A stretch of 44,976 nt of DNA from Campylobacterota bacterium (GTDB taxonomy: Bacteria; Campylobacterota; Campylobacteria; Campylobacterales; Nitratiruptoraceae). Shown here one piece after another: positions 22,490-25,916 of this stretch. Numbering within the stretch: the stretch's first letter is position 1; each line of letters begins with the position of its first letter. The notes under the pieces are model-generated. The model ran no database searches, had not been told where the DNA came from, and saw nothing but the letters and a program-made list of their open reading frames with translations. The position numbers were made by a program, and so were the translations under genes. The DNA lies in assembly GCA_013153715.1 (NCBI GenBank), contig JAADDW010000038.1, positions 1 to 44,976 of the forward strand. Reading direction: 5' to 3'.

Positions 22490-23470
22490 CTATTTCTCTT
22501 GACTCTTTATCTTTCTGTTTCTATTCTGCACATCTCTAATGTGGCTCAGATGGGAGCGGTAGCTCTTGCTGAAAATATGTTTCCCGTTGACTCCCCGAAC
22601 AAAGTAGAGGTAGTCCACCTTGGCCGGTGCCACAGCGGCCCGGATGGCGTCGATGCCGACGATACAGACCGGGTAGGGGGGGAGCCCCTTGTGGAGGTAG
22701 GTGTTGAAGGGGCTCCTATCTTCCCGGAGCCGCTTTGCTGTCACTTTCTGGTGAGAGTACTTTCCGTAGTTGAGGGCTCCATCCATCTGGAGGGGCATCC
22801 CCCGCTTGAGGCGGTTGTAGATGACTGCACTGATGAGGGGCATCTCCTCCTTGGAGGCCGCCTCCTTCTGGATGATGGAGGCGATGGTGACTATCTTGGT
22901 GAACCAGATGGTCGGGTTAAAGGAGTTGTGGAGCTTGTGGGCCAGGTGGCTATGTCTCTGGAGGCTCTTCTTCATGAGAATATCGATGAACTGCTTGGCC
23001 CCTATCCCTTTGGGGAGGTAGTAGGTCTCGGCGAAGAGGACCCCTTCAGGGTAGGGGGCAAACCGATCATACTCTTTTTGTAACACCTCCAACGGGTATC
23101 CGTACTCCTCGCTGAAGTGGCGGAGAATATCGTAGGTTGTTTCCCCTGGTATCAACTTCACGGCGAAGAGGGCGGCCTTGGCCGTTGTCAATCTGTAGAG
23201 AAAATCGCCTCTAGTCATCTCCTGTCCTCCCAGATCGATCCACCCCGACTGGGGCATTCCGATAAATTTGATAGAGTAAACATCGATCTTCGAGAGGGGA
23301 ATACCGTATCGGCTGGAGAGCTTTGTTATAATCTTTCCAATATTCCCACGCTCCACATAGAGCTGTTTAGGAGTCCTGATTGGCATGGTGTAGTAGTAGG
23401 CCAGGGCCACAATGATTATCAGAGCCATATCGGAGATTAGGAAGAGTATCTTCGAGATAATCCTCATCAT
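22490..23470 (-). CDS. mltG: Endolytic murein transglycosylase MltG
   Basis: A 326-residue MltG/YceG-family protein. An N-terminal membrane anchor (residues about 5-28) is followed by a LysM-like region and the catalytic domain: EGVLFAETYYLP, SIIQKEAASKEEM with the catalytic Glu203, SAVIYNRLKRGMPLQMD, FNTYLHKGLPPYP and YLYFVRGVNGKHIFSK. The enzyme cleaves nascent glycan strands in the periplasm and sets their length. ATG 23470 has AAAAGGA five bases upstream; a second ATG follows directly. The first 59 bp are shared, on the opposite strand, with the start of the AsmA-like gene. Confidence 0.94.
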   Translation of the reverse strand: MMRIISKILFLISDMALIIIVALAYYYTMPIRTPKQLYVERGNIGKIITKLSSRYGIPLSKIDVYSIKFIGMPQSGWIDLGGQEMTRGDFLYRLTTAKAALFAVKLIPGETTYDILRHFSEEYGYPLEVLQKEYDRFAPYPEGVLFAETYYLPKGIGAKQFIDILMKKSLQRHSHLAHKLHNSFNPTIWFTKIVTIASIIQKEAASKEEMPLISAVIYNRLKRGMPLQMDGALNYGKYSHQKVTAKRLREDRSPFNTYLHKGLPPYPVCIVGIDAIRAAVAPAKVDYLYFVRGVNGKHIFSKSYRSHLSHIRDVQNRNRKIKSQEK

Positions 23471-25916
23471 AGCGGTCCTTTTCTCCCTCCTCTATCTCCT
23501 CCTCCTGGAAGGAATTTTCATAGAGAGAGTCGGTTTTGGTGGTCTGGAGATAGAGACATTGTATCTCAAACTGGATAAAAAATTGATTGTAGAGGTGGGG
23601 AGACTCACCCTCCCCCCTCCCCAGGAGGGGGAGGGGGGGCTCCCGGAGTGGATAGGGGAGGGGATCAACCTCCTCCCCAGACTCTTCCAGAGGGTCGAAA
23701 TTGACCAGGTGAAGATAGGAGATGCTCCCCCTTTGGGGCTCCACTACAAGGAGGGCCATTTCAGACTCCATTCCGATGAACTGGAGGCCGACCTCTCCCT
23801 CTTCTCCCTCCGGAACACTATCTACCTCCAGCTCCACACCCTCTCCCTCCCCCCCTACAGCCTCACCCTCCAAGGGAGCGGGAGGCTCTCGGGAGGGGAG
23901 CTCTCCTTTGCCGGAGACTACAGGTTCCATGGGATTGGGGGGAGCCTCTCCCTCAGAAAGGGGGAGAGGGTAGAGTTTCTCCTCTCCTCCCACCCCTTCA
24001 GGCTTTCAGAGCTCCGGAAGGTTCTCCAGAGCCTCCCCCTGGATCGGGAAATTGTAGAGTGGAGTTCCGAGAGGGTCCAGGCGGAGCGGTACCAGATCTC
24101 CCAACTCTGGGGGAGTTTTGATCTCGAAGATCCCCTGGGGAGCCTCCAGATGGAGGGGAAGGGAGAGGGGAGGGGAGTGACCATCACCTTCCACCACGAC
24201 CTCCCTCCGGTCCGAGCCCGGAAGGTTCTCGTCACCTACCGTAACGATACTCTCTCCTTCGCTCTGGAGAGACCGACCTACCTGGATAAAGATTTGGAGG
24301 GGTCGATGGTCCATATCTCCCGGGTCGGGAGGGAGGGGAGCTCCCTCACCCTCCACCTCCGTTTCTCCACCCCCTTCGACGATGGGGTAGGGACCCTCCT
24401 GGAGAGTTACGGAGTCGCCATTCCCCTCCGCCAACTAGAAGGGGTGGTGGAGGGAAACCTCTCCATAGAGATCCCCTTTGATACTCTCCGTCCCGATCTG
24501 GAGGGCTATTTTCATACCGGGGAGAGCCTCCTCTCTCTAGATGGGACACTTCTTGAGGCTGAGGAGCTCACCCTCCATCTCCTCAACGGGCGGCTCACTC
24601 TCCACCCCTCTCCTCTCCACCTCCCCCCCTGGGCTTCGGCAAGGGCCAAGGGGTATCTCGATTTTGAGAGAGGTGTGGGGAAGGTGGAGTTAGAGGGGCT
24701 TCGAATCTCCCTGGAGCGGGGGGGACGGCAGATTGTCGAGCTGGAAGAGGGGAGGGGGAGACTCACCATCGATCTGGAGAGGGGGGAGCTCCGCCTCCCC
24801 CTCCTCAATCTCACCTACAGGGCTCCAGAGAAGAGTATCGTTGTGGACCATATTGAGGAGCTCATCTTCTACTCCCCCCTCCTCCAGAGGATCCTCCCAG
24901 ACTACGGGAGGGTGGTCTGCAATCTGGAGAGGGGGGAGACTCTCCTGGAGATAGAGAAGGAGAATAGAGTTCTCTGGAGGGGGGGGAGACCCATTACCCA
25001 CTTTGCTGTGAAGGTCGATCTGGAGAGGGAGCGGGCCTGGGTCAACGACTTTGCCACCATCTCCTTCGGGAAGAGACCGAGAATTACCATCAAGGGGGTC
25101 ACTATCGATCTCACTCCCCTTTTGGAGGGGGAGAGGGGGGTGAGATGTGGCGGGGAGGAGTATCTGGTAGCTCTGGATCGGGTCCTCCTCAAATATGGGA
25201 ACCACTCTCTCCCCGTCCCTTCGGGCTACCTCAACGCCCAGGGTGGGAAGATGACCTTTGTGGATCGGCTCCATCGGGGCTCCCTCTCCCTCACCCTCCA
25301 GGAGGGGCTCTTCCACCTCACCGCCTCCTCCATCTCCGCTACTACACTCAACGCCCTCCTGGGGGTCTCCCTCTTCAGAGGGGGGAGCTACACCCTCAAC
25401 GGAGATGGGGAAAAGGGGAGATTTATGGGGAGGCTCACCATCGACCACGGCTACCTCTCCGATCTCAAGGTGGTCAACAACCTCTTTGCCTTCCTCAATA
25501 CCCTCCCTGCCCTGGTCACCCTCTCCAATCCCGGGTTTGACAGGGAGGGGTTTCTGGTGAAGAGGGGGGAGATCGACTACTCTCTCCAGGGGGACTACCT
25601 CTTTCTCCCCAGGATAGATCTCTCCTCCGACGCCATGAGCCTCCATGGAAATGGGTTCATCGATCTAGAGAGGGGAGAGCTCCATCTGAAGATCAAGGTG
25701 GAGACATTTACCAAGCTGACCTCCCTCCTCAAGAAGATCCCTGTGGCGGGCTATATCCTCCTGGGGGACGACGGACAGGTCACCACCACAGTCGAGATTC
25801 GGGGGCCCCTAGAGGACCCCAAAATCCGCTCCCTCCTCCCCAAGGAGACAGTCGAGTTCCCCTTCCACCTTATTGAGAGGACCTTGAAACTCCCCTTCAA
25901 ACTCCTTGGCCGCTGA
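23412..25916 (+). CDS. AsmA/YhdP-like envelope protein
   Basis: An 834-residue protein with one N-terminal membrane segment (about residues 14-36, IFEIILIIAVLFSLLYLLLL) and a long beta-rich periplasmic part, the plan of AsmA-like/TamB-family proteins implicated in lipid traffic between membranes. The C-terminal 170 residues match the AsmA-like C-terminal (DUF3971/YhdP) region: LSDLKVVNNLFAFLNTLP, GEIDYSLQGDYLFLPRIDL, AGYILLGDDGQVTTTVEIRG. ATG 23412 is the only reasonable start before the membrane segment, though its ribosome site is poor. It diverges from mltG with 59 bp of shared coding sequence. Its TGA abuts the stop codon of the convergent permease gene. Confidence 0.82.
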   Translation: MIIRAISEIRKSIFEIILIIAVLFSLLYLLLLEGIFIERVGFGGLEIETLYLKLDKKLIVEVGRLTLPPPQEGEGGLPEWIGEGINLLPRLFQRVEIDQVKIGDAPPLGLHYKEGHFRLHSDELEADLSLFSLRNTIYLQLHTLSLPPYSLTLQGSGRLSGGELSFAGDYRFHGIGGSLSLRKGERVEFLLSSHPFRLSELRKVLQSLPLDREIVEWSSERVQAERYQISQLWGSFDLEDPLGSLQMEGKGEGRGVTITFHHDLPPVRARKVLVTYRNDTLSFALERPTYLDKDLEGSMVHISRVGREGSSLTLHLRFSTPFDDGVGTLLESYGVAIPLRQLEGVVEGNLSIEIPFDTLRPDLEGYFHTGESLLSLDGTLLEAEELTLHLLNGRLTLHPSPLHLPPWASARAKGYLDFERGVGKVELEGLRISLERGGRQIVELEEGRGRLTIDLERGELRLPLLNLTYRAPEKSIVVDHIEELIFYSPLLQRILPDYGRVVCNLERGETLLEIEKENRVLWRGGRPITHFAVKVDLERERAWVNDFATISFGKRPRITIKGVTIDLTPLLEGERGVRCGGEEYLVALDRVLLKYGNHSLPVPSGYLNAQGGKMTFVDRLHRGSLSLTLQEGLFHLTASSISATTLNALLGVSLFRGGSYTLNGDGEKGRFMGRLTIDHGYLSDLKVVNNLFAFLNTLPALVTLSNPGFDREGFLVKRGEIDYSLQGDYLFLPRIDLSSDAMSLHGNGFIDLERGELHLKIKVETFTKLTSLLKKIPVAGYILLGDDGQVTTTVEIRGPLEDPKIRSLLPKETVEFPFHLIERTLKLPFKLLGR

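Follow-up and report, generated by a model that had tools for sequence, protein, structure and literature searches.

A pair of face-to-face promoters is known from phage 186, in which two opposed promoters of sigma-70 type give overlapping transcripts. A comparable pair is predicted here for two cellular genes, mltG and asmA, in a stretch of 44,976 bp of Campylobacterota DNA, the whole of which is called the window below; unlike those of the phage, the predicted promoters would be written in synonymous codons of envelope genes. Overlapping transcripts with a regulatory effect have also been described as excludons (PMC7154746). Like the members of an excludon, mltG and asmA are adjacent genes whose mRNAs would be mutually antisense, but their overlap is short, involves both 5′ ends and lies within coding sequence; the likeness is one of geometry. 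With regard to coding sequences, 331 of the 14,958 overlaps tallied in 58 prokaryotes were divergent, and the phase 123:213 was the commonest among these, although in the model of the same authors no other phase withstands mutation so poorly (PMC2174442). The mltG/asmA pair shares with these the overlap of coding 5′ ends on opposite strands and the phase 123:213; it differs from the usual ones in that it is longer, is kept in 17 of 21 families and has detectable -10 elements inside both partners. By its length it resembles a class that has been rejected, since all 75 divergent overlaps of more than 60 bp were judged to be 5′ extensions by Palleja et al. (2008; PMC2478687): the overlap is 59 bp in the window and above 60 bp in 63 relatives. 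What sets it apart from that misannotated class is that its starts appear to be held by synonymous constraint and that most loci offer no alternative start.

In the open-licence literature, no published account of the divergent mltG/asmA pair was found, nor anything on MltG together with AsmA in Campylobacter. Divergent gene pairs in Campylobacterota yielded nothing relevant by title, embedded promoters combined with conserved overlap gave RNA viruses only, and YhdP/AsmA-like proteins of Campylobacterota are not mentioned among the matches listed. MltG of Campylobacter jejuni is named among four predicted lytic transglycosylases (PMC10151779), and the main text of a ribosome profiling study of this species contains neither mltG nor AsmA (PMC11955535). 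Our main reading, to which we give a probability of roughly 0.85 on comparative evidence, is that the overlap is real and ancient and that promoters are embedded in the partner genes.

The two genes and their distribution in the order

In the window, mltG (22490–23470, minus strand) encodes a YceG-like endolytic transglycosylase of 326 amino acids, and the YhdP/AsmA-like gene, here asmA (23412–25916, plus strand), a protein of 834 amino acids. Both products score above the Pfam gathering cut-offs (MltG with YceG, PF02618, 191.9 bits against 32.4; the asmA product with YhdP, PF13116, 148 bits in two stretches against 46). The top named relative of mltG is in a Nitratiruptor genome and is 71% identical, and asmA is the sole YhdP match in the genome of the window. 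The initial annotation had described a head-to-head overlap of 59 bp between the two, and this is exact: both open reading frames begin with ATG and share 23412–23470, so that genes of known families on opposite strands have a common coding 5′ sequence. If mltG starts from its second ATG, at 23467 instead of 23470, the overlap shrinks to 56 bp. In this phase codon positions 1 and 2 are opposed to each other and third positions lie opposite third positions. As judged by eye, the body of asmA (23600–25900) has conspicuous purine and pyrimidine runs (GGGAGGGG, CTCCCTCCC).

A phylum-wide sample of genomes yielded members of one order only, that of the window. mltG is present in 378 of 398 genomes of this order, and relatives of asmA are found in 50 of 60 genomes. 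We examined 210 mltG loci (L002–L211), all from the order; L001, which is the window again, is excluded from all counts. The asmA profile matched 185 of the 210, on the strand opposite to mltG in every one, absence of asmA being defined as no profile match at 1e-5. After removal of 18 duplicate junctions, 167 distinct ones remain, with Nitratiruptor, Hydrogenimonas, Sulfurimonas, Sulfurovum and Helicobacter among the named relatives. The frames overlap in 163 of them, by a length of 2 mod 3 in all 163, and are free of overlap in four (L077, L127, L171 and L180). The pair is present in 17 of the 21 families examined, a count that leaves out f8 and f19, and in the other four (f7, f12, f18 and f21) mltG is found without a detected asmA. 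Thus, conservation of the overlap among related genomes, which had been named as a check on the initial annotation, is evident.

Predicted promoters inside the partner genes

The predicted extended -10 element of asmA, TGTTATAAT, lies at 23324–23332 on the plus strand, opposite mltG codons 47–49 (Ile-Ile-Thr), and ends 79 bases before the asmA ATG. It conforms to TGnTATAAT, which occurs three times in the window, this copy among them, and which is the extended -10 of sigma-70 in C. jejuni, where some 89% of promoters carry it (PMC3656092). How it is written in mltG can be seen in 43 Sulfurimonas-like loci: codons 17 and 18 past a conserved proline are ATT ATA in 43/43, and the codon after them, for Thr, Ala or Ser, has A as its third base, so that the opposite strand reads TGnTATAAT. 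Among distinct loci with asmA, 166 were counted, L077 (a broken mltG frame, unmapped) being excluded. TGnTATAAT is found in 127 of them, while synonymous randomisation gives 7.5. With one mismatch or fewer from TATAAT, 162 loci qualify against 111.9 expected, so that only the exact forms are telling. When mltG codons 4–59 past the proline are scanned, the -10 is the most conserved 6-mer column (128/166 against 16.2 expected), and the next column not touching it reaches 64 against 42.7. Exact TATAAT is missing in 18 of the 166, seven of which belong to family f9, and in most loci of family f16 it is shifted and written through other residues.

Genomes in which mltG stands without asmA serve as natural controls. 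From 25 loci without an asmA match, L058 was excluded because just 4 bases precede mltG there, and L182 because MltG was not matched; 23 were mapped and 20 are distinct, and absence of asmA is less certain at L169, L173 and L183, which are short fragments, and at L181 and L183, which are second mltG copies. TGnTATAAT occurs in 0/20, and one mismatch or fewer from TATAAT in 7/20; L126 and L179 keep TATAAT though asmA was not detected. One of the loci without asmA, L211 (the contig of L039), is labelled with the genus of the window, and it has no embedded -10 either. All large open frames around mltG on L039 share its strand, and two of these precede mltG, by eye dehydrogenase-like and helicase-like. 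Three genomes of family f6 (G045, G060 and G306) have an additional mltG at another place in the genome, which has diverged further; L181 and L183, the copies that allowed mapping, are without the -10. The embedded TATAAT is also gone from L127, L171 and L180, where the two frames are separated. In these three, TATAAT-like words are seen within or close to the new intergenic stretch.

That TATAAT in mltG is mere codon usage or conservation of an Ile-Ile pair, and no promoter, is hardly credible: Ile-Ile is indeed common there (IIT, IIS or IIA in 129 of the 166 loci with asmA), but TATAAT is observed in 148 of the 166, where 23.2 would be expected from synonymous choice. Only 2/20 loci without asmA have it, and the residues at that place vary among these loci (mostly ALE, VLK, VIE and others). 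Thr, Ser and Ala, which occupy the third position, are, Pro apart, the residues matching the NCA codons antisense to TGN.

On the other side, TACAAT at 23558–23563 on the minus strand, within asmA codons 49–51, is the predicted -10 of mltG; a second TACAAT lies at 23591–23586 on the same strand. Counts and column scan were made on the 146 of 167 junctions in which the asmA ATG is 8–59 nt from the anchor codon. At this column, a hexamer with no more than one mismatch from TATAAT is found in 113/146 loci (52.7 expected) and exact TATAAT in 56 (19.6 expected), and the column is the best 6-mer among the asmA codons scanned. This putative -10 is less well supported than that of asmA, its excess being about twofold and without a natural control. 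In 101 of 157 loci each of the two -10 sites keeps to its column, although the asmA start codon shifts from lineage to lineage. Conserved -10 motifs thus oppose each other on the two strands in the geometry of a face-to-face promoter pair, more weakly on the mltG side. The initial annotation had reasoned that each promoter must lie inside the other gene and that transcription would be mutually interfering. The motifs indicate that each promoter does appear to be located within the other gene; mutual interference is what one would expect from the geometry, and the balance of peptidoglycan cutting against lipid transport that the initial annotation also suggested is a conjecture.

The two start codons

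Could the overlap simply come from starts annotated too far upstream, with one or both proteins beginning downstream and the frames not overlapping at all? This is how Palleja et al. explained long divergent overlaps. In the window, the asmA ATG at 23412 is followed by no other ATG, GTG or TTG until a TTG at codon 50, which is past the N-terminal hydrophobic segment, and the asmA frame opens just 12 nt 5′ of the ATG. Five bases ahead of the mltG ATG there is a ribosome-binding site, AAGGA (23476–23480, minus strand), antisense to the hydrophobic segment of asmA; a clear one was not found ahead of the asmA ATG in the window. Across the order, a usable start on each side is available in 161 of the 167 junctions, six being without one on at least one side. 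When for each of the two genes the most downstream start that still keeps the N-terminal hydrophobic segment is taken, the overlap that is left is a minimum; overlap is unavoidable in 152 of the 161, and this minimum has a median of 59 bp and exceeds 60 bp in 63 junctions. Where only one start per side is usable, 31/32 junctions overlap, by 56–116 bp. A reading free of overlap is possible at 9/161 junctions, which counts in favour of misannotation.

If both starts are genuine, each should leave its mark on the codons of the partner. The third base of each codon was therefore compared with the codon usage of the locus itself, the amino acid being given, in 43 Sulfurimonas-like loci, 20 of the family of the window and 16 Helicobacter-like ones. 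These groups were chosen manually by title and family label, at a point when the overlap table had already been seen, and the mltG columns were anchored on MltG and not on the start codon. Here as in the promoter counts, the loci are related and the expectations come from codon usage and not from a tree. In the Sulfurimonas-like loci, where the overlap is mostly 71 bp, the mltG Phe codon facing the asmA start is TTC in 42/43 (8.2 expected, z 14.3), the mltG codons that write the asmA ribosome site TTTAGGTA reach z 9.5 and 10.5, and the asmA Phe codon facing the mltG start is TTC in 39/43 (7.6 expected, z 13.5). In the family of the window, C faces the asmA start in 20/20 loci (7.9 expected, z 6.1) and the mltG start in 15/20 (5.8 expected, z 5.0). 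In the 16 Helicobacter-like loci, all start columns are below |z| 3. Comparative sequence thus speaks for both starts in the Sulfurimonas-like and Nitratiruptor groups, and this is not seen in the Helicobacter-like one. The start codons and a ribosome-binding site are kept through the choice of synonymous codons in the partner, most clearly in Sulfurimonas-like genomes.

Two further positions in the Sulfurimonas-like loci are frozen synonymously, namely asmA codon 2, AAC after the ATG (z 7.0), and the C in the third position of mltG codon P+3 (z 11.4); neither the start codons nor the -10 explain them. Conserved RNA structure was considered as a cause of synonymous constraint and rejected, for RNAalifold on 42 Sulfurimonas-like loci returned an energy of 0.0 for both leaders.

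Five genomes of genus g2, from the same family (L014, L017, L018, L019 and L020), have no ATG, GTG or TTG at the usual mltG start, which can be counted in favour of misannotation; L020 alone has a TTG, at least 95 bp into asmA. Here the 5′ end of mltG shows AGGAG followed 7 nt on by ATA (L014, L019, L020) or ATT (L017, L018), and this suggests that mltG in g2 uses a non-canonical AUA or AUU start. As a general explanation, start misannotation is rejected as very improbable on the forced overlaps, including those with a single start per side, and on the freezing of start codons at synonymous sites of the partner; a downstream start removes the overlap in only the nine junctions. The initial annotation had left room for an AsmA-like start farther downstream that would free the frames from each other, and had called for alignment of both starts: alignment backs them on both sides, with synonymous constraint in relatives in addition.

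Mutual interference or a tolerated accident

If transcription begins about 7 nt past each -10, as we assume, the asmA mRNA would start near 23339 and the mltG mRNA near 23551. The polymerases would then start face to face, each traversing the promoter and the start region of the other gene, and the two mRNAs would be complementary at their 5′ ends over about 210 nt, both start codons included (23339–23551 on both strands, about 213 nt, as placed from the two -10 positions). Since the predicted promoters lie inside the partner genes and face each other, mutual interference is to be expected from the geometry, through collision, promoter occlusion and antisense pairing, and strong simultaneous firing of mltG and asmA would be difficult.

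How could two genes afford such an arrangement? Each N-terminus begins with a few polar residues, the tail, and continues into a hydrophobic anchor. The phase places NTN codons, which are hydrophobic, antisense to ANN codons (Ile, Met, Lys, Arg, Thr, Ser, Asn), and these specify residues of the kind that the tail of the partner contains. The polar tail of each protein thus lies antisense to the anchor of its partner, and the overlap would be cheap because of this common design. After the signals had been embedded, separation would have required new DNA, which few lineages seem to have gained.

On a rival reading, to which we give about even odds, the overlap is genuine and ancient, and so are the promoters embedded in it, yet they have no regulatory value, each element being locked by the coding of the partner and interference being a tolerated cost. 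The overlapped segments, tails and anchors, tolerate change, single codons hold the signals of both genes together, and neither leader contains conserved RNA structure in the 42 loci mentioned, all of which agrees with a frozen accident. Against it, escape is possible, as the separated frames of L127, L171 and L180 and the four families having mltG without detected asmA indicate, and the spacing of the two -10 sites is nevertheless kept in 101 of the 157 loci. That interference between mltG and asmA matters to the cell is a serious possibility, which we rate somewhat short of even, and a regulatory role of the overlap is offered as a hypothesis. More tentative still is the idea of an order-wide regulatory lock on a gene for peptidoglycan cutting and one resembling lipid transport genes, in place since the ancestor of the order, with mutual antisense, face-to-face promoters at constant spacing in each other's codons, Ile-Ile-Thr/Ser/Ala of MltG dictated by the promoter of the neighbour, and expression that alternates or keeps a fixed ratio.

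Whichever of these holds, mltG/asmA is a real, old and unusual variant of the known overlapping and interfering gene arrangements. With 59 bp in the window and more than 60 bp in 63 relatives, it contradicts, with deep conservation behind it, the published rule by which every divergent overlap of more than 60 bp is an artefact, and, the overlaps being real, genuine genes would be harmed here by annotation pipelines that cut such starts back. It also presents a case in which the predicted promoter of a neighbouring gene constrains amino acids of an enzyme, MltG, and it suggests why two membrane-anchored proteins tolerate a head-to-head overlap. In this order, genomes that have no asmA, or in which the two genes stand apart, offer a natural before-and-after series in which transcriptional interference may be studied.
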